The notes under the pieces: generated by a model
Seen by the model: the letters and a program-made list of their open reading frames with translations, nothing else
Told to the model about the DNA's origin: nothing
Databases searched by the model: none
Assembly: GCF_000024185.1 (NCBI RefSeq)
Contig: NC_013790.1
Location: forward strand, 496,001-560,000
Length of the DNA stretch: 64,000 nucleotides
Reading direction: 5' to 3'
DNA from: Methanobrevibacter ruminantium M1
GTDB taxonomy: Archaea; Methanobacteriota; Methanobacteria; Methanobacteriales; Methanobacteriaceae
Shown here: in pieces, positions 6,322-58,774 of the stretch
Position numbering within the stretch: the stretch's first letter is position 1
Layout of the letters: each line of letters opens with the position of its first letter
Made by a program: the position numbers and the translations under genes

Positions 6322-8016
6322 TTATTGCTCATAAATCAGGCTCATGTCTTCTATTGGTAAGACAGTTTCAACGGCTTTTGCTTCAATATTTATTCCTTTT
6401 TCCTTGATTGCAGCAATTAAATTCAATCCGCTTCCTGTAACTATTCCAAAGTTATAATTATCTACCTTTGCATTATAGACTAATTCTCTTGGTTTTCCTA
6501 CTTTAAATATGGAAAATCCTTCTTTGCTTATCTTCTCCAATATTTCCTCTGTTTCAGGCCTTGCGATGTATGGGACCTCTTTGATTGATGCAAGGATTTT
6601 CTTAGGGTTTTTTCGTTTGGCTATTTGGGTCAAATCTTTAAAGATGAATATCTTATGTGGATCGATTGATGACCCGTTGTATGAAATCATTTCAACAAAT
6701 AAAGGTGGCTTTCCAAGCTCTAAAAGTCCTCCGTATTGTGGTGTGCTCATTATTCCGTTTTTGATTAGGATTCCATCAATGCTAAGGCTGCAGACTGTAG
6801 CTATTCCCACTTTGCTTTTGTCATCTGGATGGTCAACTATGCTGAAATGGGAATTCATGTATTTTGGAAGTGCCTTGTATGTCTTTTTCATAATGCTTAT
6901 TGCATCGTCAAGATCTTCCTTCTGGAGGTATGAAATGTTGGACACTATGTTTCCATGACCTGTTTCAATGTCATAATCGACCTGATTCACTCTGTTTAAT
7001 GATTTGGTAAGTATGAATGGTGTTTTCTTGTAATCCACCTTTTTAGCATGCTTTATCTTATGCTTGGAGGATTCAAGCTCTTTTAGCTTATTGTAGTTTA
7101 TGAATTCCTCACCTGTCTTTATATCCACCTTATAGTTCATCTCTTGAGCTGCGCAGAATGGGGTGATTCCTCCAATTATGGATATTCCAACCATTCCTTC
7201 TGGAACTGGAATTCCTAAAATGTTTTCGCTGATTTCTCCGATTTCAAGGATTCCTCCAATTCCTGCTTTTTCAAGCTTTTCGAAGATTTCTTTAGCTTTT
7301 TCTAGACCACTTTCTGGAATTATTCTGAAGTTTGCAGGAATTGTTCCGGTACCATGCTCCGCAACTTCAAGGACAGAGGTCATTCCTTTTGCTATGAATG
7401 CATCCAATGGAGTGATGGAGGTTTTCCTATAGGAGATAAGCTCTGAAAACTTGGTTGGATAGTAATCCTCAATATCTACAAGCCCGCCATATTGTGGGAT
7501 TGAAGGGATTCCGTTCTTTAAGAAGACTCCATCTATGGTTGTACCACAGATGGTTTTCATCACATATCCCTTTTTGCCGTTGATTTCAGTCTTTTTGGCA
7601 TTTATCAGTGGGCTTACGCAGACTCCTGCTGCAAATACTTCCTTAATTATGTCGAATGCCTTATTTTCAAGGATGTTTGAAGTGTTTACTATTACATTTC
7701 CTTCCTTTTTCTTATAGTCAAAGTCGGTGAGATAGATTCTTTCCTTGAATTTGGACAGTGTGAAGTCTACCTGGTCGTAGATTAGGCCCTTTTCCAGTTT
7801 GCTTTTTCCAAGCTCGGTGATAACTCTGCCAGAGTATCCTTGTTTTTCTGTATATCCCTTTTCATCAAGAATTTGCATATGATAGCGGACTGCACGCTCG
7901 CCAAGGTTGTATCCTTTGGTCTTAAGTTCGTCTGCTATTACCTTTGAGCCTATTGGCTTTTCATGGGTGTTTAAGATTCTTAGGATTTCTATCATTCTAT
8001 GTTCGGACTCTGACAT
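6322..8016 (-). CDS. nrpR: NrpR, repressor of nitrogen-assimilation genes
   Basis: NrpR represses nif and glnA genes in methanogens and is released by 2-oxoglutarate. The 564-residue protein has a winged-helix domain at residues 1-75 (with GERAVRYHMQILDEKGY as recognition region). Two related NrpR (DUF128) domains follow at about 85-310 and 335-560. Their internal homology is visible in GTTIDGVFLKNGIPSIPQYGG against CSLSIDGILIKNGIMSTPQYGG-like stretches. The two-domain form with a single DNA-binding domain is the one expected in Methanobacteriales. AGGAGA stands before the ATG. The gene lies directly downstream of glnA on the same strand, and a perfect NrpR operator lies upstream of glnA. Confidence 0.9.
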   Translation of the reverse strand: MSESEHRMIEILRILNTHEKPIGSKVIADELKTKGYNLGERAVRYHMQILDEKGYTEKQGYSGRVITELGKSKLEKGLIYDQVDFTLSKFKERIYLTDFDYKKKEGNVIVNTSNILENKAFDIIKEVFAAGVCVSPLINAKKTEINGKKGYVMKTICGTTIDGVFLKNGIPSIPQYGGLVDIEDYYPTKFSELISYRKTSITPLDAFIAKGMTSVLEVAEHGTGTIPANFRIIPESGLEKAKEIFEKLEKAGIGGILEIGEISENILGIPVPEGMVGISIIGGITPFCAAQEMNYKVDIKTGEEFINYNKLKELESSKHKIKHAKKVDYKKTPFILTKSLNRVNQVDYDIETGHGNIVSNISYLQKEDLDDAISIMKKTYKALPKYMNSHFSIVDHPDDKSKVGIATVCSLSIDGILIKNGIMSTPQYGGLLELGKPPLFVEMISYNGSSIDPHKIFIFKDLTQIAKRKNPKKILASIKEVPYIARPETEEILEKISKEGFSIFKVGKPRELVYNAKVDNYNFGIVTGSGLNLIAAIKEKGINIEAKAVETVLPIEDMSLIYEQ

Positions 8017-9753: not shown

Positions 9754-9767
9754 GGAAATATATTTCC
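9754..9767. promoter_or_regulatory. NrpR operator upstream of glnA
   Basis: GGAAATATATTTCC is a perfect palindrome and an exact match to the methanogen NrpR operator GGAA-N6-TTCC. It lies about 165 bases upstream of the preferred glnA start and just downstream of a TATA-like element, a position suited to blocking transcription. The presence of nrpR next to glnA supports the assignment. Confidence 0.8.
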
Positions 9768-9806: not shown

Positions 9807-10050
9807 ATCTATCTTATAGTTTTTAAATCTTAAGGATTAGTTTATTTTTTTTAATATTTTTCATTATTTTATTTAATTTTTTGTTAAAATTTTAGAAATA
9901 ATTTAATTTTATTAGTAAAAATTGAACAAATAACTATTCATTTATAAATTATCTTAAAAAAAGACGTTTTTGATTATCCTATAGTTATGCAATGGTCGAT
10001 AGGCATGATCTGGTGGCTTCTCTTTAGTGTATAGTGATATCTGTGGTATT

Positions 10051-10187
10051 TTTAGTGTTTTGTTTTAGTTTTTTGGGGGGTTCTGTAGTTTTGTTTTTGG
10101 GTTTTTTTTAGTGTTTTGTTTTAGGTTTTTTGGGGGGTTCTGTAGTTTTGTTTTTGGGTTTTTTTTAGTGTTTTGTTTTAGGTTTTT
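10051..10187 (+). repeat. 56-57 bp T/G-rich tandem repeat
   Basis: About 2.4 copies of a unit containing TTTAGTGTTTTGTTTTAG, then GGGGGGTTCTGTAG and TTTTGTTTTTGGG. The strand is almost free of C and A, so it is strongly skewed. It lies in the 795-base gap between the divergent glnA and NRPS genes, about 200 bases before the NRPS start. Just upstream (9966-10050) the sequence is less AT-rich than the rest of the gap, but no gene is recognisable. Confidence 0.75.
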
Positions 10188-10385: not shown

Positions 10386-13300
10386 ATGAATGATAAAACA
10401 AATGATTTTTTCAGTGAATATTTATCAGGATTATGTCTGGATTTTGATGAATCCACTTTAATTGCTCCAAATAAGAATGGAGAAAAGGAAAAATGCATAA
10501 TTGAAAAGTCAGAATATGAAATTAAAAAAGATAATTTAGTTGGATTTGCAAAGTCCAATTCAATTTCAATCAATGAGCTTATATTGGCAAGTTTAACTTT
10601 AACACTTAATAAATTCAATTTTTCAAATGAAACCTTAATTTTCAATCAAAATAATGTTCCATTTGCTGCTAAATTTGAAAACAGACAAATTTCAATTAGG
10701 GAATTTTTAGAAAAAATTCATGAGAATTATATTAAAACATTGGAATTCGATGAGTATTTTGATAAGGATGACCTTCCTTTAAATCCGGAATTTTATTTTA
10801 CGTTCGATGAGGATTTAAAATCAGATGCAGAATATTCCAATTATCTAAGCATTGTTGAAAATGATGAAACTGTTTCTCTCTTTTTATCTTATAATGATGA
10901 ATTATATACAAAGGAGTTCATCAATCTATTCATATCAAGCCTTGAAAAAATCCTTGAAGAAATAGCCACTTCGGATATTGATAAGACAAATATCTGCGAC
11001 ATTGCTATTGTAGGTGAAAATGAAGATCTCATCTTCACTGAAGTTGAAATGCCTTTGATTCACAGGCGTTTTGAAAAGCAGGCTGTGGAGAAGGGGGATG
11101 AGATTGCTCTTGTTGCAAGCGATGCCACATTGACTTACAAGCAATTGGATGAAAAGGCAAATGTCATTGCAAATGCATTGATAGCTAAGGGAGTCAAGCC
11201 GAAAAGCAATGTCTTAGTTATGCTTTCAAGGGATAGCAATCTGATTGCTTCCATTTTAGGTATCCTTAAGGCAGGCTGCGCATTCATTCCAATCGATCCT
11301 GAATACCCTCAAGAGAGAATAAACTACATCTATGAAAACAGTCAGGCAGATTATATTATTGCCAACGAATCTGGAGAAAAGTCTTTAGACATTGAAGAGT
11401 TGCTTAAGGATGGCAATTCAGATGATCCTGAGCTTGATGTTGACCCGGATGATTTGGCCTATATGATCTACACTTCAGGGTCCACAGGAAATCCGAAAGG
11501 TGTAATGATCAGCCACAAAAACATCTGCAATCAGGCTTCAAATCCAAAATCCACTTATGAAAGTTTGCTTTGCATTACAACCATCTCTTTTGACGTGTCT
11601 GTTGACGACATATTGACATCCCTTTCAAATGGATTGAAATTGGTACTTGCTGATGATGTTCAAATCAAAAATATTCCAGCTCTAATCAAGTTAATTGATG
11701 AAAACAAGCCTGAAATTTTAGAAATTACTCCTTCAAGAATGGGGTCTTATCTTGAGGTAAAGGAATTCTGCAATGTCATATCCTGCTTTAAGTGTATTTT
11801 CATTGGAGGAGAGAAATTTTCATCAAAAGTTTATGAAGATTTAAGAAAATATAGTGATGCTGTCGTCTATAACAGTTACGGCCCAACAGAAACAACAATC
11901 ACCTCAAACAACAAGGCGGTTACTGATGTAAACGATTTGACTGTGGGGCTTCCTCATATTAATTATGTCACCGATGTTCGTGACATTGACGGCAAATTGG
12001 TCCCTGATGGTGTAATGGGTGAACTGTACATTGGAGGTACCGGTGTAGGAAAAGGATACTACAACATGCCAGAAAAAACTGCAGAAGTGTTCCTGACCAT
12101 CAATAACATTCCATATTACAGAAGCGGAGACTATGCAATTAAGCTTCCAAATGGCGAAATCGACATTAAGGGAAGAATTGACAACCAAATCAAACTCAGA
12201 GGATTAAGAATAGAAATCGGCGAAATCGAGTCTAACGTTGGCAAATATCCAAATATCAAACAGGCTGTAGTTGTAATTAAAGAGATTAACGATAATGAAC
12301 ATCTATGCGCTTATTACACTGCCGATGAAGAGATTGATAGTGATGATTTAAAAGAGTTTTTAAAAGACCGCCTTACTCGTTATATGGTTCCTACTGTCTT
12401 CATGCAGCTTGATGAGATGCCACAAACACCAAACGGCAAGACAGACTTGAAACAACTGCCAGTGCCACAGCTTAAATTGTCATTTACCCTTCCAGAGAGT
12501 GAAACTGAAATAATCTTGCATGAAATTGCTTCATCAATCAGCAAAACAAAGGAATTCGGTACTACCGATGATTTGTATGCTATTGGATTTACTTCATTGA
12601 CACTGATGAAATTAAATGCAAGGATTTATGAGGAAATGGGTGTTAATTTAGATATTATTTCATTATTGAATGATCCTACAATTAAAAATATTGCAAAGGA
12701 AATAGAAAACAATGATATTCTGGACTTGAATGGTGTAATAGAATCATCTAAGGATATGGTTTATTATCCATTGACAGAAAATCAAATGGGAATCTATTAT
12801 GAGTGCATTCAAAGCGGCGAGCTTGCACAATATAATCTCCCATCAGTAATAAGATTTGGCAGTGAAATTGATGCTGACAGATTACATGACGCTATCATCA
12901 AGACAATTGAGGCATATCCTTATCTTAAAACCAGAATTGTTCTAGAAAAAGGTAAAGTGATGCTTAAACGTGATGATTCAATAGATATTGATGATATTCC
13001 AATTATTAATGTTGATAGTATTTCCGATGAGCAAATCGAAAAGGAAAATCTAAAGCTATTTGATTTGCATAATGACCAGTTATTCAGATTTAAAATCTAT
13101 AAGACTCCTAGCGAAACAATTTTATTCTCAGATGTCCACCATATCATTTCCGATGGTGAATCCTTAGATAAGCTCTTTACAAATATTTCCAATGCATATC
13201 AAGGAATTGAAATTGAAAAGGAAACAATCAACGGTTACATTAACAGCATAATTGAAAGTGAGAATGAGAACAGTGAAAAATATGAACTGTCTAGAAAGTT

Positions 13301-16300
13301 CTTCCAGGATAAGTTAACTCAAGAAATTGATTCCACTGTACTCACTCCAAATCTCAACGGCAATTTTGAAGAGGGAATTTTAAAATCAATTTCCAAAAAT
13401 ATCGACTCCGAATTGGTCAACAGGTTTTGCAGTGAAAACAGGATAACCCCTAATGTTTTATTCATGGCAGTAACCATGCTCAACCTAAACAAGTACACAT
13501 TCAATGACAAAACTTTGATTACAACCATTTTCAATGGAAGGTCAAACTCATCCTACATCAACACACAGGCATTGCTGGTTAAAACCCTTCCGATTGTTTC
13601 AATCAATGATGATAGGACATTGTCATTTAAGGAATATTTAAGTTCAGTCAATGACATCTGGATGGAAACCATCAATCATTCTGATTATCCTTATACTAAG
13701 ATCTCTGAAGAGTTTGGATTGAAACCAGAGTTTTTCTATGCCTACAATAATCTTGATGCTGAAGAAATTGCAATTGATGGCAAGACTTATAAAGTCAAAT
13801 ATTTGAAATCACTTGAAGTCAATTATAAGATATCTTTGGAAGTTAATGAGACTTGGGACAATATTGAATTATTCCTTGAGTACAATGACCAATTGTATAG
13901 CGCAGATTACATTGACACCTTCTTAAATTGCATCATCGATGTAATAAATCAATTAATTGAATCGGATATTGAAGAATTAAGCATTGGTGAAATAGAATTG
14001 GGTAAAGGTATAGAGACACCCTTATCATTTACACCTGTTGATATGCCTATTTTACATAAGCGATTTGAAAAACAGGTAACTGATAAAGGTGATGAAACCG
14101 CTCTTGTTGCAAGTGATGCCACATTGACTTACAGGCAATTGGATGAAAAGGCAAATGTCATTGCAAATGCTTTGATTAAAAGAGGAGTCAAGCCGAAAAG
14201 CAATGTTTTAGTGATGCTTTCAAGGGACAGCAATCTGATTGCTTCTATTTTGGGAATCCTTAAGGCAGGCTGTGCATTCATCCCAATCGATCCAGAATAT
14301 CCTCAAGAGAGAATAAACTACATTTATGAAAACAGCCAAGCGGATTATATTATTGCTAACGAATCTGGAGAAAAGTCTTTAGACATTGAAGAGCTGCTTA
14401 AGGAAGGCGATTTTGAAAATCCTGATGTTGATGTTGGCCCTGATGATTTGGTCTATATGATTTACACTTCAGGATCCACTGGTAATCCGAAGGGTGTAAT
14501 GATTAGCCATGAAAATATCTGCAATCAGGTTTCAAACCCTAAATCCTCTTATGATAGTCTTCTTTGCATTACAACCATATCTTTTGACGTGTCTGTTGAC
14601 GACATATTGACATCTCTTTCAAATGGATTGAAACTGATACTTGCTGATGATGTTCAAATCAAAAATATTCCTGCTTTGATTAGGTTAATTGATGAGAATA
14701 AGCCTGAAATTTTGGATAGTACTCCTTCAAGACTTGCCTCCTATCTTGAGGTAAAGGAATTCTGCAATGTCATATCCTGCTTAAAGTGCATTTTCATCGG
14801 AGGGGAGAAATTTTCAGCAAAAGTCTATGAAGATTTAAGAAAATATAGTGATGCTGTCGTCTATAACAGTTACGGTCCAACAGAAACAACAATCACCTCA
14901 AACAACAAGGCGGTTACTGATGTAAACGATTTGACTGTGGGGCTTCCTCATATTAATTATGTCACTGATGTTCGTGACATTGACGGCAAATTGCTTCCTA
15001 ATGGTGTAATGGGTGAATTATACATTGGAGGTACCGGTGTTGGAAAAGGATACTATAACTTGCCTGAAAAAACCCAAGAGGTGTTTTTGACTATCGATGG
15101 CATTCCATATTACAGAAGCGGAGACTATGCAATCCAACTTCCAAATGGCGAAATCGACATTAAGGGAAGAATTGACAACCAAATCAAACTCAGAGGATTA
15201 AGAATAGAAATCGGCGAAATTGAAACCAATATTGGCCAATATCCTGATATAAGGCAAGCTGTTGTTGTAATTAAGGAAATCAACAACAACGACCATTTAT
15301 GTGCTTATTACACTGCCGATGAAGAGATCGATACTGAGAATCTAAAAGAGTTTTTAAAAGATCGCCTCACTCGTTATATGGTTCCGACTGTGTTTATGCA
15401 GCTTGATGAGATGCCTCAAACCCCAAACGGCAAGACAGACTTGAAACAGCTCCCTGAACCTCAGCTTAAGTTGGCTTTGGTGATGCCTGAGAGTGAAACT
15501 GAAGAAAGATTATATGATATTGTCTCATCTCTTGTGGATGCTGATGAGTTTGGTATTACAGATGACTTATATGCCATTGGATTTACCTCTTTGACATTAA
15601 TGAAATTAAATTCCATAGTCTATGAGCAAATGGGGGCGAATTTAGACATTTCCATATTATTCAATGAGCCAACAGTTAAAAACTTTGCAATAGAAATTGA
15701 CAATTCCTTTGAAAAGGATTCTGGCCTTGAAGAGCTTATAGAATCAGCTAAAGGCTTGGAATATTATCCGTTGACTGAAAATCAATTAGGGATTTACTAT
15801 GAATGTATGCAAAATCCGGATGTGATTAAGTATACGATGCCTACAACAGTAAGATTTGACAGTGATCTTGATGCAAATAGACTTAAACAGGCAGTCATTG
15901 ACACTATTGAAGCACATCCATATATTAAAACAAGAATTGTAAATAATGATGGTGAATTAAGGCAGAAAAGATGTGATGATGTGGCAATCGACGATATTGA
16001 AATTGTTAAAGTCGATAGCATTAGCGATGAGGACATTGTCCGAAATGATGTGGGTCCGATTTCTATAGAGGACAGTCAATTGTTCAAATTCAAAATATAT
16101 GAAACCCCTGATGAGATTGTCTTATTCTCAGATTTCCATCATATAATCACTGATGGAGTATCCCAAAACAATTTATTTAGAGATATAGCCGATATCTATG
16201 AAAATAGAGAAATATCCGAAGAGATAATCGATGGATATATCTACAGTCTTTTGGAAAAAGAAGCCGAAAACAGTGAAATATATCAATCTGCAGAGGCATT

Positions 16301-19300
16301 TTTCGATGATAAGTTAACTCAAGGAATAGAATCCACTGTTCTGACTCCAGACCTTAATGGAAATCCTGATGAGGGTAAAATAAAAAATCTTTCCTATGCT
16401 TTTGATTCAGAATTGATTAATGAGTTCTGCAATGATAATTCCATAAGCAAAAATGCCTTGTTTATGGCAGGCACAATTTTAAACCTGAACAAATTCACAT
16501 TCTCTGATAAGACATTGATAACAACAATATTCAATGGAAGGTCAAGTCCAAGCTATTTCAATACTCAAGGATTTTTGGTAAAAACCGTTCCGTTTATTAT
16601 CAATAATGAAAACAGGCAGGCATCACTTAGGGATTTCATTAAATCCATTGACCAAAGCTGGAAAGATACCTTGACAAACAGTGCATATCCATATATTAAG
16701 ATAGCTGAGAAATATCAATTAAAACCTGAATTCTTCTATGCTTATCATGAATTCCTAGAGTCTGATGAAATGATGATAAATGGCAAGGAGTACATTCCAC
16801 AAGAATTAGCTGGGGTTGATATGGTTACAGTTGAATCCAAAATCAATCTAGCTGTTTATGATAATGGTGATGAGTTTAATCTTATTTTGGAATATAACGA
16901 CCAGCTCTACAGTGAAGATTATGTTAAAACATTCATAGAATCCCTGAAGAGCATTTTAGTTCAATTCCTTGAAAATGATATGGACAATTATAGAATCTGT
17001 GATGTAAAATTAAAGGATGATGAGGAAGTGCATGAATTTGTTGATGTGGAAATTCCATTTATCCATAAGCGTTTTGAAAAGCAAGTTGATGAGGCTCCCG
17101 AAAAGATTGCATTAATTGCAAGCGATGGCTCATGGACCTATGGTGAACTTAACCAAAAGGCAAATCGTGTTGCCAATGCTCTTATAAACAAGGGAATCAA
17201 AGCCAACAGCAATGTCTTGGTAATGCTTCCAAGGGACAGCAATCTCATTTCAGCTATTTTAGGTGTCTTAAAGGCAGGCTGTGCATTCATACCTATTGAT
17301 ATTAACTATCCTAGGGGCAGAATCGATTATATTTTTGAAAACAGTCAGGCAGATTATCTTATAGCAGATAGGGGAATTGAAAATTCAATTGACATTAATG
17401 AATTGCTCCAAGAGGAGAATGCCTCAAATCCTCAAGTGGAAATTGATCCAGATGATTTGGCTTATATGATTTACACTTCAGGTTCTACAGGTAATCCTAA
17501 GGGAGTAATGACCAGCCATATGAATATTACAAACTTATTCTCCAAAGATGAGGGTAGTGTAATTTATAATGCATATTCAAAAATGAAAAGGACTCTTGCC
17601 CTTTCAACAGTATCTTTTGATGCATTTCTGCTTGATTTCATGCCATTGACCTTCGGTTTGGAAGTGGTGCTGGCTAACGATAGTGAAATAAAGAATATTA
17701 AGGAATTGGCTGAATTGGTTAAAAGAGAAAAACCGGATTCACTTACATTTTCCGCACCATCAAGGTTTAAGCAATATCTGGAATATGAGGAATTCGCCAA
17801 ACAAGTACCTGACTTCAGGTATATTGGTCTTGGTGGAGAGATGGTACCTCAAGACCTAATTTCACGACTTTTAGAGTATCCTAATTTAGAATTGTATAAT
17901 ATTTACGGCCCGACTGAAACAACAGTGACATGCAATACCCATAAGCTTAGTGATGCGGAGAATATAACTGTTGGAAGGGCCCTCCACAATTGCATAACTG
18001 AAGTCAGGGATATTGATGGAAAACTGGTTCCTAATGGAGTGATGGGAGAATTATACATCGGAGGTAAAGGAGTATCTAGAGGATATTACAATATGGAAGA
18101 AAAAACCAAGGAAGTATTCCTATCTATTAATGATATTCCATATTATAGAAGCGGTGACTATGCAATTGAACTTCCAAATGGTGATTTAGTAATTAAAGGA
18201 AGAATCGACAATCAGATTAAGTTAAGGGGATTGAGGATAGAGCTTGGTGAAATCGAATCCAATATTGCCAGATTCCCACATATGAAGCAGATTGTAGTTG
18301 TGATTAAGGAAATCAATAATGCTGAACATTTATGCGCTTATTTCACAGCTGATGAAGAGATAGACATAAAGCTCTTGAAAAGGTATCTGGGAAATAAGCT
18401 GACTGAATATATGGTTCCAACCGTATTTATGCAGCTTGATGAGATGCCAATATCTCCAAATGGCAAGACAGACATTAAGAGACTTCCAAAGCCAAAATTA
18501 AATCTGGATTATGTTGAAGCTGAAGGGGAAACTGAAGAAAAGTTAGTTGAACTTGTTTCATCCATTGCCAATACAACTAACTTCGGCACAACAGACAATC
18601 TATATGAATTGGGCTTCTCTTCCTTAACATTAATGAAATTGAACTCAATGATCTTCAATGAAATGAATGTGAATATTGACATAACTTCATTGTTTACAAA
18701 TCCGACAATCAAGTCCCTTGCAGATAAGATTGACAATAATATAGAATTTGAAATAGACATTGATGAAATCATTGAGACTGCAAAGGATATGGATTATTTC
18801 CCATTGACCTCAAATCAGATGGGAATCTACTATGAGTGCATGCAGACTGAAAAAATCAAATACACCATGCCATATGCAATAAGGTTTGAAAGCAGCATCG
18901 ATCCTTATAAGCTTAAGGACGCCGTTATCAGGACTGTTGATGCACATCCATATCTCAAGACAAGGATTATCAATACTGATGATGGAAAGATATTGCAAAA
19001 GAGATGTGACGACGTTGAAATCGAGGAGATAGAAATCGTCGAAATAGATTCTATCAGCAATAGGCAGATAATGGACAGGGACATAAAGCCAATTCCATTG
19101 GATGATAATCAGCTATTGAGATTTAAGATTTATAAGACACCTACAGAAACAATATTGTTTGCTGATTTCCATCATATCATTACAGATGGAGTTTCTCAAG
19201 GCATTTTCTTCAATGATTTGGCTAAGGCATATAACAATGAGGAAATCGAGGCTGAAAAAATTGATGGATATGAATACAGCCTGATTGAAGAGAAAATTTC

Positions 19301-22300
19301 CCTTAGCGAAGTCTCAGAGAATTTCTTCAAGAAACAGTTTAGTCAAGGCATTGAATCAACTGTTCTAACTCCAAATATGAATGGCAATCCAGATATTGGA
19401 AACATTAAGCTCATTTCAGATCAGGTAGGCTCCAGTTTTGTCAGGCACTTCTGTAAGGACTATTCAATAAGTCCGAACGTTTTATTTATGGGCGCTACAC
19501 TTTTATGCCTTAATAAATTTACATTCAGCGGAAAATCATTGATTACAACAATCTTCAATGGTAGGTCAAACTCAAATTATGACAATACTCAAGGAATGTT
19601 GGTTAAAACATTGCCTATCATTGTAAATGCTGAAAATCGTGACATGATGGTTGAAGATTATATAAAATTGGTTGATAAGGCCTGGAAAGATGCATTGACC
19701 CATAGCAATTATCCCTACACAAAGCTTGCAGAGGATTATCAGTTAAAGCCGGAATTCTTCTATGCATTCCATGAATCATTAAAAAGTAAAGTTGAGCTTG
19801 ATGGCAGGACTTATGAGGCGATTGACCTTGACGGTACTGTTTCAACTGATTATAAGATAAACTTGGATATCTTTGATGATGGGGAATTTATTACATTGTA
19901 TTTGGAGTATAATGATCAAATCTATACAGAAGAGTATGTTAATCAGTTCATACGTTCAATAAAATATATCTTATTCCAGTTCTTTGTACATGATATGGAT
20001 AAATTGAGAATAAGGGATATTGAATTGGTTGAAGGGGAAATTCCAGAGTTTGAAGAGATTGACACTCCGATTATTCATAAGCGCTTTGAAAAGCAGGTTG
20101 TTGAAAAGCCAGGTGATGTGGCATTGGTTGCAAGTGATGCCACCTTAACTTATGGGGACTTGAATGAGAAAAGCAATAGGATTGCAAATGCATTGATTAG
20201 GCGGGGCGTAAAGCCTAGAAGCAATATTCTCATAATGCTTAAGAGGGATAGCAATTTGATTGCTTCCATTTTAGGTGTCCTGAAGGCAGGATGCGCATAT
20301 GTTCCTATCGATCCCGAATACCCTTCCGAAAGAATCAACTACATTTATGAAAACAGCCAGGCGGATTATATCATAAGCTATGAGACTTCAGAGAATTCAT
20401 TAAATGTTTATGAGCTTCTTGAAGAGGAAATTGTTGTAAATCCAAATGTTGAGGTTCTTCCGGATGATTTGGCCTATATGATCTACACTTCAGGCTCAAC
20501 AGGCAATCCTAAAGGTGTGATGATTAGTCATAAGAACATCTGCAATCAGGCTCAAAACCCTAAATCCACTTATGATAGTCTTCTTTGCATTACAACCATC
20601 TCTTTTGACGTATCTGTTGATGACATATTGACATCCCTTTCAAATGGATTGAAATTGATATTGGCTGATGATGTTCAAATCAAAACTCTTCCGGAACTTA
20701 TTAAATTGATTGATGAGAATAAGCCTGAGGCTTTAGAGATCACTCCTTCAAGAATAGGCTCTTATCTTGAATTGGAAGAGTTCTGTAATGTGATTTCTTG
20801 TTTAAAATGTATTTTCCTTGGAGGCGAGCAGTTTTCAGCAAAAGTCTATGAAGACTTGAGAAAATATAGTGATGCTGTTGTCTATAACAGTTACGGTCCG
20901 ACCGAAACAACAATCACCTCAAACAACAAGGCAGTTACTGATGTAAATGATTTGACTGTAGGGCCTCCTTTAAAAAATTATGTCACCGATGTTCGCGACA
21001 TTGACGGCAAGTTGGTCCCTAATGGGGTAATGGGTGAATTGTACATTGGAGGTATGAGCGTTGGAAAAGGATACTACAATATGCCTGAAAAGACAGAAAA
21101 AGTTTTCTTAACCATCAATGGCATTCCATATTACAGAAGCGGAGACTATGCAATCCAACTTCCAAATGGAGAGATTGACATTAAGGGAAGAATTGACAAT
21201 CAGATCAAACTCAGAGGATTGAGAATAGAAATCGGTGAAATCGAATCAAACATTGGCAAATATCAGGATATAAGGCAGGCTGTTGTTGTGATTAAAGAGA
21301 TTAACAATGTTGATCACTTATGCGCTTATTACACTGCTAATTGCGAAATTGACTCTGATGATTTAAAGGAGTTTTTAAAGGACCGCCTTACTAATTATAT
21401 GATACCGACAGTGTTTGTGCAGCTTGATGAGATGCCTCAAACTCCAAACGGCAAAACGGATATCAAAAGACTTCCGCAGCCAAAAGTGGAATTGAATTAT
21501 GTGGCTCCGAAAACAAGGCTTGAACATGAGATCTGTGCAATATTTTCATCTATATTGAATATAGAAACAGTTGGTGTAGAGGATAATTTCTTTGAAATCG
21601 GTGGAACATCACTTATTGCATCAAAATTAATTATTGAACTTCTTAAACAGGGATATAGTGTAAGATATGATGACATATTCAGGAATAAAACTCCTAGAGC
21701 ACTGGCGAAATTATTGTCTGGTGAAGACATTGGCGAAGAGGACTTGGATTTAACTGATGATATCATCAAAAACTACAATTATGGCGAAATCAATGAGCTT
21801 CTCCAAGAGAATACATGGGAAAACTTCTTTGATGGTGAAAATCTGGAATTGGGCAATGTCCTATTGACTGGAGCTACAGGATTTTTAGGAATCCATATCC
21901 TATATGAATTCATCAAAAGTGAGGAAGGAAAGATCTATTGTATGTTAAGGAAAGGCAAGTTTGATTCCTGTCAGGAACGGTTGATTGATGTGATGAATGA
22001 TTACTTTGATGAGGATTTCACTGATCTCGTCGGCTCACGCATCATTCCAATCGAAGGGGACATAACTGAAATCGATGATTTTAAACAGCTTGAGGATGAG
22101 CCTATTGATACGGTGATAAATTCGGCCGCACTTGTAAAGCATTATACTGCCGATGATTATATCTTCAGGGTGAATGTCGATGGAGTAATCAATGGACTTA
22201 AATTTGCCCAAACTAGAAATAACATAAAATATGTACAGATATCAACAATCAGCGTTCTTTCATCATACTCCTTAAATGAAGAGGCATATCCGAATCAGGA

Positions 22301-22949
22301 ATATGATGAAAGGACATTATATTATGAGCAGGATCTAGAAAACAAATATGTATGCAGTAAGTTTTTAGCTGAAAGGGCGGTTCTGCAAGCTGCAACTAAA
22401 GGGCTTCCAGTAAAGATAATCAGAGTTGGAAATCTTATGAGCCGTTATTCAGATGGTGTGTTCCAGAAAAATTATGATACAAATGCATTTTTAAATAACA
22501 TTAAAACCATTAAAAAATTAGGAGCTATGAATCCTGCAATGGCTAGTGAAAAGGTTGACATGAGTCAAATAGATTATGTTGCAAAGGGAATACTTGCATT
22601 GTCTAAGACTCCAGAGAAATCCAGGGTATTCCATTGTATGAATAATCATTATATTTCCCATAGGGATATTGTTGATGCATTGAATACATACGGTTACGGA
22701 ATTGAAGAAGTGGATTTCGAAGAATTCAAACAGATTTACGAACAAAACATGAATGAGAATATACAGGGTATAATAACTGCCGATTTTTCAATTGATGACT
22801 TTGATGAGGAAGACGATTTCGAGGAGAATGTGGAAATTGAACAGACTGTTGATATTCTTCATTCGTTAGGATTTGATTGGCCTGAAGCAGATGAAGAGTA
22901 TCTTAAACGATTGTTTGATTATTTGAATAAGTTTGATTATTTTGAATAA
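10386..22949 (+). CDS. Four-module non-ribosomal peptide synthetase with terminal reductase
   Basis: A 4187-residue NRPS. Domain order by motif: partial C domain (1-220, no HHxxxDG), A1 (about 223-690), T1 (Ser737), C2 (HHxxxDG at 918), A2 (1224-1690), T2 (Ser1735), C3 (HHxxxDG at 1918), A3 (2227-2700), T3 (Ser2746), C4 (HHxxxDG at 2929), A4 (3231-3695), T4 (Ser3742) and a thioester reductase (TGATGFLG at 3828, YxxxK at 3988-3992). All A domains have YTSGSTGNPKG and NGKTD cores. No epimerase or thioesterase is present, so a tetrapeptide released reductively as aldehyde or alcohol is expected. Read against GrsA positions, the A1, A2 and A4 pockets look identical (D,V,D,S,F,G,S,I,T) and A3 differs (D,A,L,S,G,G,I,V,T). 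Substrates are not assigned. A MATE exporter follows. No phosphopantetheinyl transferase is in the window. Confidence 0.95.
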   Translation: MNDKTNDFFSEYLSGLCLDFDESTLIAPNKNGEKEKCIIEKSEYEIKKDNLVGFAKSNSISINELILASLTLTLNKFNFSNETLIFNQNNVPFAAKFENRQISIREFLEKIHENYIKTLEFDEYFDKDDLPLNPEFYFTFDEDLKSDAEYSNYLSIVENDETVSLFLSYNDELYTKEFINLFISSLEKILEEIATSDIDKTNICDIAIVGENEDLIFTEVEMPLIHRRFEKQAVEKGDEIALVASDATLTYKQLDEKANVIANALIAKGVKPKSNVLVMLSRDSNLIASILGILKAGCAFIPIDPEYPQERINYIYENSQADYIIANESGEKSLDIEELLKDGNSDDPELDVDPDDLAYMIYTSGSTGNPKGVMISHKNICNQASNPKSTYESLLCITTISFDVSVDDILTSLSNGLKLVLADDVQIKNIPALIKLIDENKPEILEITPSRMGSYLEVKEFCNVISCFKCIFIGGEKFSSKVYEDLRKYSDAVVYNSYGPTETTITSNNKAVTDVNDLTVGLPHINYVTDVRDIDGKLVPDGVMGELYIGGTGVGKGYYNMPEKTAEVFLTINNIPYYRSGDYAIKLPNGEIDIKGRIDNQIKLRGLRIEIGEIESNVGKYPNIKQAVVVIKEINDNEHLCAYYTADEEIDSDDLKEFLKDRLTRYMVPTVFMQLDEMPQTPNGKTDLKQLPVPQLKLSFTLPESETEIILHEIASSISKTKEFGTTDDLYAIGFTSLTLMKLNARIYEEMGVNLDIISLLNDPTIKNIAKEIENNDILDLNGVIESSKDMVYYPLTENQMGIYYECIQSGELAQYNLPSVIRFGSEIDADRLHDAIIKTIEAYPYLKTRIVLEKGKVMLKRDDSIDIDDIPIINVDSISDEQIEKENLKLFDLHNDQLFRFKIYKTPSETILFSDVHHIISDGESLDKLFTNISNAYQGIEIEKETINGYINSIIESENENSEKYELSRKFFQDKLTQEIDSTVLTPNLNGNFEEGILKSISKNIDSELVNRFCSENRITPNVLFMAVTMLNLNKYTFNDKTLITTIFNGRSNSSYINTQALLVKTLPIVSINDDRTLSFKEYLSSVNDIWMETINHSDYPYTKISEEFGLKPEFFYAYNNLDAEEIAIDGKTYKVKYLKSLEVNYKISLEVNETWDNIELFLEYNDQLYSADYIDTFLNCIIDVINQLIESDIEELSIGEIELGKGIETPLSFTPVDMPILHKRFEKQVTDKGDETALVASDATLTYRQLDEKANVIANALIKRGVKPKSNVLVMLSRDSNLIASILGILKAGCAFIPIDPEYPQERINYIYENSQADYIIANESGEKSLDIEELLKEGDFENPDVDVGPDDLVYMIYTSGSTGNPKGVMISHENICNQVSNPKSSYDSLLCITTISFDVSVDDILTSLSNGLKLILADDVQIKNIPALIRLIDENKPEILDSTPSRLASYLEVKEFCNVISCLKCIFIGGEKFSAKVYEDLRKYSDAVVYNSYGPTETTITSNNKAVTDVNDLTVGLPHINYVTDVRDIDGKLLPNGVMGELYIGGTGVGKGYYNLPEKTQEVFLTIDGIPYYRSGDYAIQLPNGEIDIKGRIDNQIKLRGLRIEIGEIETNIGQYPDIRQAVVVIKEINNNDHLCAYYTADEEIDTENLKEFLKDRLTRYMVPTVFMQLDEMPQTPNGKTDLKQLPEPQLKLALVMPESETEERLYDIVSSLVDADEFGITDDLYAIGFTSLTLMKLNSIVYEQMGANLDISILFNEPTVKNFAIEIDNSFEKDSGLEELIESAKGLEYYPLTENQLGIYYECMQNPDVIKYTMPTTVRFDSDLDANRLKQAVIDTIEAHPYIKTRIVNNDGELRQKRCDDVAIDDIEIVKVDSISDEDIVRNDVGPISIEDSQLFKFKIYETPDEIVLFSDFHHIITDGVSQNNLFRDIADIYENREISEEIIDGYIYSLLEKEAENSEIYQSAEAFFDDKLTQGIESTVLTPDLNGNPDEGKIKNLSYAFDSELINEFCNDNSISKNALFMAGTILNLNKFTFSDKTLITTIFNGRSSPSYFNTQGFLVKTVPFIINNENRQASLRDFIKSIDQSWKDTLTNSAYPYIKIAEKYQLKPEFFYAYHEFLESDEMMINGKEYIPQELAGVDMVTVESKINLAVYDNGDEFNLILEYNDQLYSEDYVKTFIESLKSILVQFLENDMDNYRICDVKLKDDEEVHEFVDVEIPFIHKRFEKQVDEAPEKIALIASDGSWTYGELNQKANRVANALINKGIKANSNVLVMLPRDSNLISAILGVLKAGCAFIPIDINYPRGRIDYIFENSQADYLIADRGIENSIDINELLQEENASNPQVEIDPDDLAYMIYTSGSTGNPKGVMTSHMNITNLFSKDEGSVIYNAYSKMKRTLALSTVSFDAFLLDFMPLTFGLEVVLANDSEIKNIKELAELVKREKPDSLTFSAPSRFKQYLEYEEFAKQVPDFRYIGLGGEMVPQDLISRLLEYPNLELYNIYGPTETTVTCNTHKLSDAENITVGRALHNCITEVRDIDGKLVPNGVMGELYIGGKGVSRGYYNMEEKTKEVFLSINDIPYYRSGDYAIELPNGDLVIKGRIDNQIKLRGLRIELGEIESNIARFPHMKQIVVVIKEINNAEHLCAYFTADEEIDIKLLKRYLGNKLTEYMVPTVFMQLDEMPISPNGKTDIKRLPKPKLNLDYVEAEGETEEKLVELVSSIANTTNFGTTDNLYELGFSSLTLMKLNSMIFNEMNVNIDITSLFTNPTIKSLADKIDNNIEFEIDIDEIIETAKDMDYFPLTSNQMGIYYECMQTEKIKYTMPYAIRFESSIDPYKLKDAVIRTVDAHPYLKTRIINTDDGKILQKRCDDVEIEEIEIVEIDSISNRQIMDRDIKPIPLDDNQLLRFKIYKTPTETILFADFHHIITDGVSQGIFFNDLAKAYNNEEIEAEKIDGYEYSLIEEKISLSEVSENFFKKQFSQGIESTVLTPNMNGNPDIGNIKLISDQVGSSFVRHFCKDYSISPNVLFMGATLLCLNKFTFSGKSLITTIFNGRSNSNYDNTQGMLVKTLPIIVNAENRDMMVEDYIKLVDKAWKDALTHSNYPYTKLAEDYQLKPEFFYAFHESLKSKVELDGRTYEAIDLDGTVSTDYKINLDIFDDGEFITLYLEYNDQIYTEEYVNQFIRSIKYILFQFFVHDMDKLRIRDIELVEGEIPEFEEIDTPIIHKRFEKQVVEKPGDVALVASDATLTYGDLNEKSNRIANALIRRGVKPRSNILIMLKRDSNLIASILGVLKAGCAYVPIDPEYPSERINYIYENSQADYIISYETSENSLNVYELLEEEIVVNPNVEVLPDDLAYMIYTSGSTGNPKGVMISHKNICNQAQNPKSTYDSLLCITTISFDVSVDDILTSLSNGLKLILADDVQIKTLPELIKLIDENKPEALEITPSRIGSYLELEEFCNVISCLKCIFLGGEQFSAKVYEDLRKYSDAVVYNSYGPTETTITSNNKAVTDVNDLTVGPPLKNYVTDVRDIDGKLVPNGVMGELYIGGMSVGKGYYNMPEKTEKVFLTINGIPYYRSGDYAIQLPNGEIDIKGRIDNQIKLRGLRIEIGEIESNIGKYQDIRQAVVVIKEINNVDHLCAYYTANCEIDSDDLKEFLKDRLTNYMIPTVFVQLDEMPQTPNGKTDIKRLPQPKVELNYVAPKTRLEHEICAIFSSILNIETVGVEDNFFEIGGTSLIASKLIIELLKQGYSVRYDDIFRNKTPRALAKLLSGEDIGEEDLDLTDDIIKNYNYGEINELLQENTWENFFDGENLELGNVLLTGATGFLGIHILYEFIKSEEGKIYCMLRKGKFDSCQERLIDVMNDYFDEDFTDLVGSRIIPIEGDITEIDDFKQLEDEPIDTVINSAALVKHYTADDYIFRVNVDGVINGLKFAQTRNNIKYVQISTISVLSSYSLNEEAYPNQEYDERTLYYEQDLENKYVCSKFLAERAVLQAATKGLPVKIIRVGNLMSRYSDGVFQKNYDTNAFLNNIKTIKKLGAMNPAMASEKVDMSQIDYVAKGILALSKTPEKSRVFHCMNNHYISHRDIVDALNTYGYGIEEVDFEEFKQIYEQNMNENIQGIITADFSIDDFDEEDDFEENVEIEQTVDILHSLGFDWPEADEEYLKRLFDYLNKFDYFE

Positions 22950-23066
22950 ATGGTGGATTAATGTCAAATGAAATTATTTCTCTTAATTTTGAATAAAAGG
23001 TGAATTCGTGTCAAATGAAATTATTTCTCTTAATTTTGAATAAAAGGTGGATAGTATGTCAAATGA
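22947..23066 (+). repeat. 47-48 bp tandem repeat carrying repeated mini-ORFs
   Basis: Between the NRPS stop and the exporter a unit of a GGTG ribosome binding site, a start codon and TCAAATGAAAT occurs three times (starts at 22961 ATG, 23008 GTG and 23056 ATG). The first two encode the same 11-residue peptide MSNEIISLNFE and stop. The third stops after five codons. The unit appears to derive from the end of the NRPS gene plus the start of the exporter gene, duplicated by slippage. Confidence 0.8.
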
Positions 23067-23090
23067 AATATAACTCATAAATTTAGGGAA

Positions 23091-24737
23091 TTGTTGTTGC
23101 CGTCACTGCTTATAGCTATGGCTTTAAACATAGCTTCAGTCGTTGATGCAAGTTTTGTATCAACCTTTATCGGACACAATGCACAGGCGGCTTTACAGGT
23201 CTTAGAGCCTTTGGTATTGTTAATTACAATATTTGAATGGCTGTTTGGACTGGGAGGTCAAATTTTAGCTTTGAATAAAAAGGCGGAATTTGATGAAGGT
23301 GGAAGCAATCATTATTTCACAACTGCAATGCTTGCAACAATAGTTCTATCAGTTTTGATTTTATTGGTATGCTTTTTATTTAAAGATTCCTTAATTAATC
23401 TATTGCATCCGACTGCTGGAGCACTGCCTTATGTAAACGCATATAGTCCATATTTATTCATCAGTTTCCCAATTGCAACTATCTTGGGAGTATTATGTCA
23501 ATTTATTCGTGTTGACGGGCAACCGAATTTTGCTTCAGGAGTAATTATTGTTGCAAATATTATCAATATAATTTTAGATTATCTCTTCCTTGGTGTTTTT
23601 CATATGGGCATTGAAGGGGCATCACTTGCGATGATGATAGGTTATGCAGTTGGATTATTGTGTACTTTAAAGTATCATTTTGATTCAAAAAGAACTTTCC
23701 GATTCGTTTTTTCCGAATTGAAATTTGGGACTTGGATACGCTCAACAATTGAAATAATCAAGATAGGTCTTCCAGGGGCAAGCATGGGCTTCTTTAATGT
23801 ATTGTTGATCTATATCATGAATTTAATTGTTGGCGGAGTTTTAGGAGAGCTGGGCTTGGATATATTCAATGTATGTGTGGTTGCATTGCTTTTAATAAGC
23901 ATTTTAATCATGGGATTCGCCGAAACATTATCTTCCATTGTTCCTATTTATTATGCCCAAAATGATTTCTATAATCTTCATCATATTGTGCGAAATTCAA
24001 TTATAATAACATTGGTCTGTTCGGTGATATTCACTGCATTCCTCTTAATATATCCTGATGGTCTATTGATGTTTTTCAAACTTCACCAAACCGCTAATGA
24101 TGGATTAGTGGAAAATGCGATTAGGATATACTCATTGGCATTCATACCTATGGCATTTTCAACTATGCTCTTGTTTTATTATGAAGGGATTGAAAGAACT
24201 GTGGAATCTGGAATCATTACAGTCATTTCTGAATTTCTTGGACCATTATTTTTTACATACCTATTATATCCATTCATAGGCATAACCAGCGTTTGGCTAT
24301 CTTTCCCTTTAGGTTTTATTCTATCAATAGTTGCTGTATCCATTTATGTTAAGGTGGTTGAAAGAAAAGATAGCGAATATTCAGGATTGTTTTTCATTAG
24401 AAGGGGATTGATTGAAAAAACAAGAAATTACACTTTAGAAAGCAAGAATGATGCTGTGAAATCTGAAATGTTTAATCATTTAAAGAGTTTGAATGTGGAT
24501 GATTCATCTATTGAAACATTGGATAAGATTATAGGTACCATATTTGATTCAAACAATGAAAAAGTCCATGTGGAGATATTATTGATTGATTATGGTGATA
24601 AGATAGTTATCAATATGAAAGATGAGGGAAATAGAGAAGTGATGAAGGATATTGAAAAGTCCTTTTCCCAAGATAAAATCAAAGTTAGTGAAGTGTTGGG
24701 ATTTAATAATGTAGAATATTTGATTGATGGGGCCTAG
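23091..24737 (+). CDS. MATE-family exporter with C-terminal histidine-kinase-like ATPase domain
   Basis: Residues 1 to about 430 form a MATE-type multidrug/metabolite exporter with about 12 membrane segments and the family-like start PSLLIAMALNIASVVDASFV. The last 110 residues (from about 435) are soluble and resemble an RsbW/HATPase domain: KSEMFNHLKSLNVDD, then IDYGDKIVINMKDEGN in the N/G-box area, with the ATP motifs degenerate. The coordinate given is a TTG with no good ribosome binding site. The frame is open back to 23067 and reads NITHKFRELLLPS, so the true N-terminus probably began MSNEI at 23056 and was separated by a one-base deletion. It follows the NRPS directly, so export of the peptide product is the natural inference. 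Confidence 0.82.
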   Translation: MLLPSLLIAMALNIASVVDASFVSTFIGHNAQAALQVLEPLVLLITIFEWLFGLGGQILALNKKAEFDEGGSNHYFTTAMLATIVLSVLILLVCFLFKDSLINLLHPTAGALPYVNAYSPYLFISFPIATILGVLCQFIRVDGQPNFASGVIIVANIINIILDYLFLGVFHMGIEGASLAMMIGYAVGLLCTLKYHFDSKRTFRFVFSELKFGTWIRSTIEIIKIGLPGASMGFFNVLLIYIMNLIVGGVLGELGLDIFNVCVVALLLISILIMGFAETLSSIVPIYYAQNDFYNLHHIVRNSIIITLVCSVIFTAFLLIYPDGLLMFFKLHQTANDGLVENAIRIYSLAFIPMAFSTMLLFYYEGIERTVESGIITVISEFLGPLFFTYLLYPFIGITSVWLSFPLGFILSIVAVSIYVKVVERKDSEYSGLFFIRRGLIEKTRNYTLESKNDAVKSEMFNHLKSLNVDDSSIETLDKIIGTIFDSNNEKVHVEILLIDYGDKIVINMKDEGNREVMKDIEKSFSQDKIKVSEVLGFNNVEYLIDGA

Positions 24738-29143: not shown

Positions 29144-29697
29144 ATGAAAAGAACAATTAATGAAAGATGGGAATTATGGTATAATCGAATCTTGCCATAT
29201 ATTATAATTTTTGATTTTATATTGATTACAGTTTCACTCATACTAAATGTTTCAGAACCTACAATGGCTCACATTGAACATTTTGACCTTTTAGTCTGCA
29301 TAATCCTTTTGGGAGAATTCTTTTATTTTTTATACAAGGCACCGTCAAAGAAAAAGTTCCTGCTTGACAGGGATATCTTCTGCTTTTGATTGCATCAATA
29401 CCATTTGATTTTATAATTGAACTATTTATGCCCGTTAATTTTCCAGGAACCATTTTAGGATACCTTAGAATGTTAAGGTTAATAAGGGTGATAAGCTTTG
29501 CCCGAATGGGGTCCTTTGAAGATTTCTTCAAAAAGACAGAGTTTCACAAAATCATAATTGCAATAGCAATCATTATAATGACATTCACAGCTCTGTTTTA
29601 CGTGTTTGGAACCAGCTACAATCCTTTTGATTATTTCTATTTTGTTATAGTGGCACTGACAACTGTTGGATTTATTGACAAACCCCTTAAAAAATAA
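29144..29697 (+). pseudogene. Broken voltage-gated-type potassium channel
   Basis: Two overlapping frames together encode one ion channel. The first part (29144-29386) has TM segments S1-S2 and runs to FLLDRDIFCF, where it stops. The second part (about 29372-29697, other frame) reads LLLLIASIPFDF, an S4-like LRMLRLIRVISFARMGSF, S5, the pore helix and the filter start TTVGF. A single-base change near 29375 explains the frameshift. The gene is also cut off at the filter: after TTVGF it runs into the left repeat of the island (29670) and ends as IDKPLKK. GAGGTT precedes the ATG at 29144. Confidence 0.8.
29670..29694 (+). repeat. Left boundary repeat of the island (R0, tail of the dispersed repeat)
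   Basis: Identical over 25 bases to 42649-42673, where the same sequence forms the tail of the last dispersed repeat copy. Here it abuts the truncated potassium channel gene. Confidence 0.75.
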
Positions 29698-29704
29698 TTC
29701 ATAA

Positions 29705-30037
29705 TTAATGTAAGCTCATTTTTGAGAATAGATTTAGCACCCCTACACCTATAATGATAAGTAAAAGTCCAAGGATAGCAGCCCAATCAGGGGTCTGTTT
29801 GAAAGCGATAATCCCTACAATTGTCACAAGCACGATTCCCAATGCTGACCAAATGGCATATGCAACTCCTATTGGTGCTGTTTTTAGGCAGTTGCTGAGA
29901 CTGTAAAATGATAATATGTATAATATGATTGATGCTATTGTTGGCAATGGTTTAGTGAAACCTTCAGCAACTTTTAACAGTGATGTGGCACTGGTTTCAA
30001 ATAGAATTGCAAGTAAAAGATAAGCAATATTATTCAT
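29705..30037 (-). CDS. Small multidrug resistance (SMR) family exporter, copy 1
   Basis: A 110-residue, four-helix membrane protein of the EmrE/SugE type. The essential membrane glutamate is present as Glu14 (LLLAILFETSATSLLK), followed by the conserved APIGVAYAIWSALGIV loop and the Trp of TPDWAAILG. It probably exports cationic compounds in exchange for protons. The start overlaps the end of the HxlR regulator gene by 4 bases, so the two are co-transcribed and translationally coupled. An identical copy lies at 39572-39904. Confidence 0.93.
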   Translation of the reverse strand: MNNIAYLLLAILFETSATSLLKVAEGFTKPLPTIASIILYILSFYSLSNCLKTAPIGVAYAIWSALGIVLVTIVGIIAFKQTPDWAAILGLLLIIIGVGVLNLFSKMSLH

Positions 30038-30420
30038 TTTTGGTTTCCCCCATATTTTAACTGTTCAAATTCTTTTTTAATTTTTTCCAGTTCCTCTCCA
30101 TGATATTCCTCTTCAAGATTGAAAATGGCGAGTTCGTATAATATGTTTTGAAGCCTGTGGCCTTTTTCAGTCAGGTGATATGATGTTTCATTATCTTTGA
30201 TGTTTTTTTCGATGATGTTGTTTTCTTCCAGTTCCTTAAGTCTTTGTGTTAGGATTTTATTGGACAGTTCAGGCTTGTCCTCTTTGAAATCGCTGAAATA
30301 TTTTTTTCCAAGAATCATGTCCCTTAAAATGTATACTGTCCATTTGTTTTTAATAAGATTCAGATTTTTTTCAAATTGACAGTATGGGGGCAGTTTATCA
30401 AATTTTCTTTTAATTGTCAT
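30034..30420 (-). CDS. HxlR-family transcriptional regulator, copy 1
   Basis: A 128-residue winged-helix regulator. The HxlR pattern is clear: a cysteine near the N-terminus (PPYCQFEKNLNLIKNKW), then FSDFKEDKPELSNKILTQRL as recognition helix, LEENNIIEK as wing and YHLTEKGHRL. HxlR proteins often sense thiol-reactive or toxic compounds through this cysteine. Gene order suggests it controls the SMR exporter it overlaps and perhaps the divergent CooC operon. Identical copy at 39901-40287. Confidence 0.92.
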   Translation of the reverse strand: MTIKRKFDKLPPYCQFEKNLNLIKNKWTVYILRDMILGKKYFSDFKEDKPELSNKILTQRLKELEENNIIEKNIKDNETSYHLTEKGHRLQNILYELAIFNLEEEYHGEELEKIKKEFEQLKYGGNQK

Positions 30421-30489
30421 TTTTGCACCTATTGTTAAATTTAAACCTTTTCCTTTAAATATTTTTAAAAAGTATTACTTTAAAGAGGA

Positions 30490-30575
30490 TATCACACGGT
30501 TACTTATTATTTTTGTTACCTTTTTGTTACAAAACCTTTTAATTGTAGTTTATTTATAATATAATTTAAAACACA
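30490..30575. promoter_or_regulatory. Divergent promoter region with three GTTAC words
   Basis: In the 175 bases between the divergent HxlR and CooC-like genes, GTTAC occurs at 30499, 30515 and 30526 in direct orientation. It is followed by a TATA-like TTTATTTATAATATAA region that suits the CooC-like gene. A regulator binding site is a reasonable guess only. The same region recurs at 40357-40442. Confidence 0.35.
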
Positions 30576-30595
30576 AATTATGGAAAGTGAATTAA

Positions 30596-31396
30596 ATGAA
30601 AGAAAAAATATTTATCAATGGAAGAGGAGGATGTGGAAAGAGCACATTCATATCATTAATTGCAAAGGAATTGTCAAAAAACAATAAAGTATTAATAATT
30701 GATATGGATGAGGGAAACCTCGGATTGAACAAGATGCTTAATGTTGATGTTGCAGACACTTCATTAATGGAATATTATGGTGGAAGAGATAAGATAATGG
30801 GTGAAATTTTAAAAGTAGGAATTAAAGGTATGGTTTTAGAAAAAATCAACCTGAAAGATGACGCAGCCTCAGATTCAATAGATATTTTGGATAATATGAA
30901 ATTATCAGATTTACCTTCCGATTATGTGACATGGAACGGAAATATAGGATTCATTGAATCCGGAAAAATCAACGACCCTGATGAAGGCTGTGCCTGTCCG
31001 ATGGGAAATCTTACAAGAGACTTCCTAAATCACATTGAATTACAAGACAATGAAGTAATATTGGTCGACACCTCAGCGGGAATAGAACACATTGGAAGAG
31101 GAGTAATTGAGTCTGCAGACAAACTCATTTCAATAGTTGACCCGTCAAGCGATGCAATATTGTTGGCAAATAAAATAGGATCATTATCAAAAGAGGCATC
31201 CAAAGAATATATGGTAATATTGAATAAAATTGATGAAAATACTAAAGATTTGGTATTGGAACAATTGGATGATGACATATCTGTCGTTGGGGAACTTGAA
31301 TATAATTCACACATAGCTCAAAGCAACCTTTCCCAAAAAGAAATTAACCTTGAGGAAGTAGAAGGTGAAATTAAGGAAATCTGTGCAAAAATTTAA
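30596..31396 (+). CDS. CooC/MinD-like ATPase (possible nickel insertion protein), copy 1
   Basis: A 266-residue P-loop NTPase of the SIMIBI class. The Walker A motif has the deviant form GRGGCGKST (residues 9-17), with LIIDMDEGNLG following. A Cys-X-Cys pair (C132, C134 in GCACPMG) matches the metal-binding CxC of CooC, the ATPase that matures nickel sites of CO dehydrogenase. VDTSAGIEHIGRG is the switch region. No CO dehydrogenase gene is near, so the target may be another metalloenzyme. It heads a three-gene plus-strand unit with a TauE/SafE exporter and a ferredoxin. Residue 89 is Asp here and Gly in copy 2. Confidence 0.82.
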   Translation: MKEKIFINGRGGCGKSTFISLIAKELSKNNKVLIIDMDEGNLGLNKMLNVDVADTSLMEYYGGRDKIMGEILKVGIKGMVLEKINLKDDAASDSIDILDNMKLSDLPSDYVTWNGNIGFIESGKINDPDEGCACPMGNLTRDFLNHIELQDNEVILVDTSAGIEHIGRGVIESADKLISIVDPSSDAILLANKIGSLSKEASKEYMVILNKIDENTKDLVLEQLDDDISVVGELEYNSHIAQSNLSQKEINLEEVEGEIKEICAKI

Positions 31397-31441
31397 AGAT
31401 TTGATTAAGATTTAAATTTCAATAGGGCGCATGGTGCAATA

Positions 31442-32269: not shown

Positions 32270-32280
32270 TTTTGATTTGT

Positions 32281-32499
32281 ATGTATAAGGTATGGAAAAA
32301 TTGTATTGGTTGTGGGGAATGTGCAAAGGCATGTGATTTTAATCTGATTCAAACATTTGATGATTATATTCTGATGGATATTGAAAAGTGCAGGCATTGC
32401 TCAAAATGTGTAGAAACTTGTCAAAACAATGTTTTTACAAAATCAGTTATTTTTAAACACTTTTTATATCTATTATATTATAAGATTAAAAAATCTTAG
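32281..32499 (+). CDS. Small 2[4Fe-4S] ferredoxin, copy 1
   Basis: A 72-residue protein with two cluster motifs: CIGCGECAKACD and CRHCSKCVETC. A basic, hydrophobic tail (KHFLYLLYYKIKKS) may contact the membrane. The ATG at 32281 is chosen; a TTG three codons earlier is possible. It starts 11 bases after the TauE/SafE stop. Electron carrier role is inferred from the motifs; its partner is unknown. Identical copy at 42148-42366. Confidence 0.88.
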   Translation: MYKVWKNCIGCGECAKACDFNLIQTFDDYILMDIEKCRHCSKCVETCQNNVFTKSVIFKHFLYLLYYKIKKS

Positions 32500-32544
32500 G
32501 ATAATTGAAAAATTGATGAGTATCTCATAACAGTTAAGATTTTT

Positions 32545-39553: not shown

Positions 39554-39571
39554 TTAAAAAATAATTCATAA

Positions 39572-40287: not shown

Positions 40288-40462
40288 TTTTGCACCTATT
40301 GTTAAATTTAAACCTTTTCCTTTAAATATTTTTAAAAAGTATTACTTTAAAGAGGATATCACACGGTTACTTATTATTTTTGTTACCTTTTTGTTACAAA
40401 ACCTTTTAATTGTAGTTTATTTATAATATAATTTAAAACACAAATTATGGAAAGTGAATTAA

Positions 40463-41263: not shown

Positions 41264-41308
41264 AGATTTGATTAAGATTTAAATTTCAATAGGGCGCATG
41301 GTGCAATA

Positions 41309-42136: not shown

Positions 42137-42147
42137 TTTTGATTTGT

Positions 42148-58761: not shown

Positions 58762-58774
58762 TTTGGTGATATAT

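Follow-up and report, generated by a model that had tools for sequence, protein, structure and literature searches.

How does an NRPS gene in a rumen methanogen build its product, in what form is that product released, and does it leave the cell? In this study we focus on such a gene in Methanobrevibacter ruminantium M1, within a stretch of 64,000 nucleotides that we call the window and to which coordinates refer unless a genome or another locus is named. Positions 10386-22949 of the forward strand hold a single uninterrupted open reading frame of 4187 aa, without stop or frameshift across 12.5 kb, whose product has the domain order [C-terminal half of C]-A-T-C-A-T-C-A-T-C-A-T-R. The gene, its parts and the next gene on the strand are as follows.

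10386..22949, + strand: NRPS gene mru_0351, 4187 aa
10386..11030, + strand: N-terminal remnant, the C-terminal half of a condensation domain, without HHxxxDG
11031..12485, + strand: A1, pocket code DVDEFGSITK
12486..12725, + strand: T1 (IGFTSL)
12753..14021, + strand: C2 (HHIISDG)
14022..15470, + strand: A2, pocket code DVDDFGSITK
15471..15725, + strand: T2 (IGFTSL)
15753..17030, + strand: C3 (HHIITDG)
17031..18485, + strand: A3, pocket code DALTGGIVTK (position 278 ambiguous, T or F)
18513..18740, + strand: T3 (LGFSSL)
18783..20030, + strand: C4 (HHIITDG)
20031..21485, + strand: A4, pocket code DVDEFGSITK
21501..21740, + strand: T4 (IGGTSL)
21753..22946, + strand: R, NAD(P)H thioester reductase domain (TGATGFLG, YVCSK)
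23091..24737, + strand: MATE-family exporter mru_0352, the next gene on the strand

The Pfam matches in the protein comprise four AMP-binding (E 1.8e-301), three Condensation, four PP-binding and one NAD_binding_4 domain (E 4.2e-39). HHxxxDG is kept in all three full C domains (aa 918, 1918 and 2929), and the carrier Ser in all four T domains (motifs at aa 733, 1731, 2742 and 3738). The repeated C-A-T units with HHxxxDG, AMP-binding core and carrier Ser are those of a modular NRPS, and bear out the four modules proposed in a first-pass annotation of this DNA. The same annotation had called the first C domain truncated, and indeed aa 22-208 align to the C-terminal halves of C2, C3 and C4 (26-32% identity, E down to 7e-26), HHxxxDG being absent from this stretch. 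It had also placed a reductase with TGATGFLG and YxxxK at the end: TGATGFLG lies at aa 3828, YVCSK at aa 3988, and the domain, C-terminal to the last T domain, scores 134.7 bits against PF07993. The protein is thus predicted to be a reductive-release NRPS, with a C-terminal NAD(P)-binding thioester reductase.

This reductase is already represented by solved structures, since PDB entries 6VTJ and 6VTZ match the R domain at 100% identity across 397 aa. These entries cover the terminal PCP-R didomain only, their chain having the same sequence as the M1 R domain, and we take them to be the archaeal PCP-R didomain structure of Deshpande et al. (2021, JBC 296:100432). The latter structure is cited in PMC12783407 and PMC13303079. 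The identity with 6VTJ, together with the gene order, establishes that the NRPS is the published mru_0351. Leahy et al. (2010, PMC2812497) described its four modules, the MatE gene mru_0352 next to it and the PPTase gene mru_0514. We find that the genome also has a second NRPS near 0.1 Mb, flanked by a MATE gene and a SpoIIE-type phosphatase, and that the PPTase gene adjoins another SpoIIE phosphatase; the same arrangement was described for M1 (mru_0068, mru_0351, mru_0352 and mru_0513-0516; PMC2812497). In the 2010 text the last domain of mru_0351 is a thioesterase, whereas both the sequence and the solved structure make it a thioester reductase. The mru_0351 transcript was later reported to change under lauric acid together with mru_0352, mru_0069 and the PPTase gene mru_0514 (PMC5816558), which answers the question of expression that had been raised for this gene. 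The novelty implied by the first-pass annotation therefore does not hold: the gene was published in 2010, its transcript in 2018 and the PCP-R structure in 2021. What we add is small, and has no counterpart in the literature found: the conservation of pocket codes, an aldo/keto reductase linked to paralogs, and a defect at the start of the exporter gene.

A PPTase encoded elsewhere in the genome had been named as a further check, and mru_0514 provides it, with a PF01648 match of 55 bits at genome position C1:701698-701919 in a 214-aa frame. More broadly, a PPTase is found in 74 of the 79 Methanobacteriales genomes with condensation domains and in 12 of the 72 without (Fisher test on 151 genomes, kinship ignored). 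The statement that NRPS genes are rare in Archaea is misleading for this order, because about half of its genomes carry condensation-domain genes (79/151; 43/90 among good-quality genomes), and a rumen survey put the number of archaeal NRPS clusters at 687 across 125 genomes (PMC8241843). One genome of the same genus, G014, has 47 condensation-domain matches (contigs C3, C6, C8, C13-C17 and C36), far above any other congener. Bacterial matches are distant, at most 30% identical over part of the query, and the best plasmid-borne ones to the T4-R region reach only about 33% identity.

Taken together, mru_0351 is a four-module NRPS with intact catalytic motifs, very probably armed by a PPTase, with reductive release and export through a MATE protein. 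In the sequence of events that we propose, mru_0514 would arm the four T domains, and module 1 would initiate without a functional C domain, because the catalytic half is missing from the C remnant. Three peptide bonds would then be formed by C2, C3 and C4, and R would use NAD(P)H to reduce the tetrapeptidyl thioester, to the aldehyde if not further, and so free it for export by the adjacent MATE protein. The order of these steps follows established NRPS-family logic, while the architecture, the motifs, the PPTase gene, the transcript and the R structure are documented here or in published work.

Six orthologs are complete, at 4188-4214 aa from stop to stop, and comparison with them shows which parts of this design persist. 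The truncated starter C, the four modules, R and then MATE are kept in all six. The N-terminal remnant appears to be kept under constraint, as 63-83% identity persists among them. Modules shuffle, and A1, A2 and A3 vary among the orthologs: in M1, A1 and A2 are 90% identical as protein (85.5% as DNA over the module), and the M1 third-module type occupies second place in G061. A gene of 4187 aa with 89% identity to mru_0351, IE19DRAFT_00420, is known from M. millerae ZA-10 (PMC4987999). The G041 gene fits it, with A1 DVDDFGSITK and A2 DVDEFGSITK, the reverse of M1. The A4 code DVDEFGSITK is invariant in the six complete orthologs.

What the four modules load was addressed with the specificity prediction suggested at the outset, which yielded codes for all of them. 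The codes come from a GrsA-anchored alignment, with the GrsA segment checked against 1AMU, and read DVDEFGSITK for A1 and A4, DVDDFGSITK for A2 and DALTGGIVTK for A3, in which position 278 is uncertain by one gap (T or F). Literature searches gave no exact match to a characterised code and turned up the ornithine code DVGEIGSIDK alone (PMC3992020), which shares 7 of 10 positions with DVDEFGSITK. The two differ at G239D and I299F, because of which a shorter or different substrate than ornithine is possible for these pockets.

The A1, A2 and A4 pockets are acidic at two positions, D239 with E or D278, on account of which our reading of the tetrapeptide is basic-basic-aliphatic-basic, ending in a basic aldehyde, a prediction that has about an even chance of being right. 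Loading of neutral residues would give another product class, such as an aureusimine-type cyclic peptide imine or a metal-binding peptide, and we consider this rather unlikely. It draws on a pocket code without exact known match and on the kinship of the R domain, whose closest solved relative outside mru_0351 is the reductase of AusA (E 1e-41), the top NCBIfam model by score being that of aureusimine synthetase (NF047350), at 1903.9 bits below its cut-off of 2500. AusA, from Staphylococcus, shares with mru_0351 reductive release and a homologous R domain, but it is a dimodular enzyme, whereas mru_0351 has four modules and a truncated C at its start and falls below the family cut-off. The paired acidic residues favour a basic side chain, no hydroxylase or other tailoring gene adjoins, and a hydroxylation that depends on oxygen would be implausible in a strictly anaerobic organism. 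A hydroxamate siderophore was rejected for its part, there being no hydroxylase nearby in this strict anaerobe.

Should the basic-residue reading hold, the terminal aldehyde may be free, as a protease-inhibitor-like warhead, or may react with the amine of its own side chain and close to a cyclic imine or hemiaminal. Closure of this kind is expected for an aldehyde derived from ornithine or diaminobutyrate, and among cyclic products the side-chain imine would be the likeliest, ahead of a head-to-tail imine. A C-terminal basic aldehyde is a feature of leupeptin, antipain and omicsynin-type peptide aldehydes, and the mru_0351 product, if correctly predicted, would have it in common with them. It would differ in lacking a predicted ureido or acyl cap and in its archaeal producer. 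Such a secreted archaeal basic tetrapeptide aldehyde or imine, its basic terminal residue being conserved, could inhibit trypsin-like or cysteine proteases, or signal among rumen microbes, with long paralogs making the matching alcohols through an aldo/keto reductase; as a whole this is an unlikely, speculative scenario. NRPS genes of methanogens have been in the literature since 2010 and occur commonly among gut Methanobacteriaceae, with no product identified in the literature found, nor any isolated product of mru_0351 itself. Having a definite product class to look for, with a terminal module that does not vary, brings a directed search by aldehyde trapping within reach. The genes also offer possible points of entry into the ecology of rumen methanogens, and hence into methane.

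Whether R stops at the aldehyde bears directly on this product. Four-electron reduction, by R or by a separate cellular reductase, would instead give a peptide alcohol. An aldo/keto reductase adjoins the NRPS in the long paralogs, which have 7-8 modules, and in related loci. Four loci with the order NRPS-MATE-reductase group together as a single branch in the tree of R domains, the reductase lying 1.7-1.8 kb past R; three further loci have one near the NRPS. The linked reductases are 64-87% identical to one among them. These paralog-linked aldo/keto reductases of gut Methanobacteriaceae are at:

L125:7626-8507
L049:15921-16799
L041:9302-10150
L040:15783-16622
L127:9372-10217
L060:4271-5110
L061:8680-9519

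M1 itself has seven aldo/keto reductase genes, one of them encoded on the opposite strand 2.9 kb downstream from the NRPS, which would be compatible with an alcohol. However, the M1 genome has no ortholog of the NRPS-linked enzyme (best matches 34-37% over part of the protein), and the mru_0351-clade loci that we examined contained no linked aldo/keto reductase. Its presence beside the paralogs and absence from the mru_0351 clade suggest that R stops at the aldehyde in this family, only some members going on to the alcohol. An alcohol from mru_0351 is thus somewhat doubtful, and an aldehyde or the imine derived from it is the product that we prefer.

The immediate surroundings agree with the earlier description of a locus without tailoring enzymes and with an exporter as next gene. 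The exporter is of the MATE family, and a MATE gene lies directly 3' of the NRPS in every mru_0351 ortholog examined. The opposite-strand neighbours encode a ThiF-family protein and an aldo/keto reductase with a ferredoxin domain; since neither turned up next to the orthologs that we examined, where the ferredoxin type was specifically searched, the locus has no dedicated tailoring gene.

In M1 a 47-base tandem unit (2.8 copies, 22939-23069) spans the end of the NRPS and the start of the exporter. All three start copies in the repeat run into early stops, the MATE body being in another frame, whereas orthologous exporters start in frame with MSNEII. On this ground export may be impaired in strain M1, and the pathway could even be decaying there, with an intact NRPS, a broken exporter start and little or no product leaving the cell. 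The exporter frame is nevertheless open from TTG 23091 for 548 aa, and the shortened protein holds an apparent first membrane segment and the remainder of the protein, because of which its function appears uncertain rather than lost. With the transcript reported (PMC5816558) and the NRPS frame unbroken, decay is very unlikely, and a working synthetase with export by mru_0352 remains our preferred reading.

Upstream of the NRPS, the intergenic region holds a G/T-rich 57-base tandem repeat (10049-10187, 2.5 copies, 98% matches). A perfect palindrome, GGAAATATATTTCC, resembling an NrpR operator, lies at 9754-9767 upstream of glnA, and an nrpR-like gene at 6322-8016 on the minus strand. Control of the NRPS from this GGAAN6TTCC site was rejected: its distance is about 150 bases to glnA against about 620 to the NRPS, and we assigned it to glnA. 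With one mismatch allowed, the count of GGAAN6TTCC-type sites in the window is at chance.

Elsewhere in the window, a 3-kb duplication (29687-32681 and 39554-42548) is near-identical, at 99.96% over the 2565 bases compared, and carries genes for an SMR-family transporter, an HxlR regulator, a P-loop NTPase and a TauE/SafE protein. At 49947-50056 on the minus strand, an Rfam tRNA match of 110 bases, missed by ARAGORN in its bacterial setting, is probably an intron-containing tRNA gene. Finally, a long GAAGAAGAAGCT-type repeat at 59498-59950 codes for a Glu/Ala-rich stretch within the open reading frame 58763-60838, which has HAD-hydrolase and DUF7121 domains.
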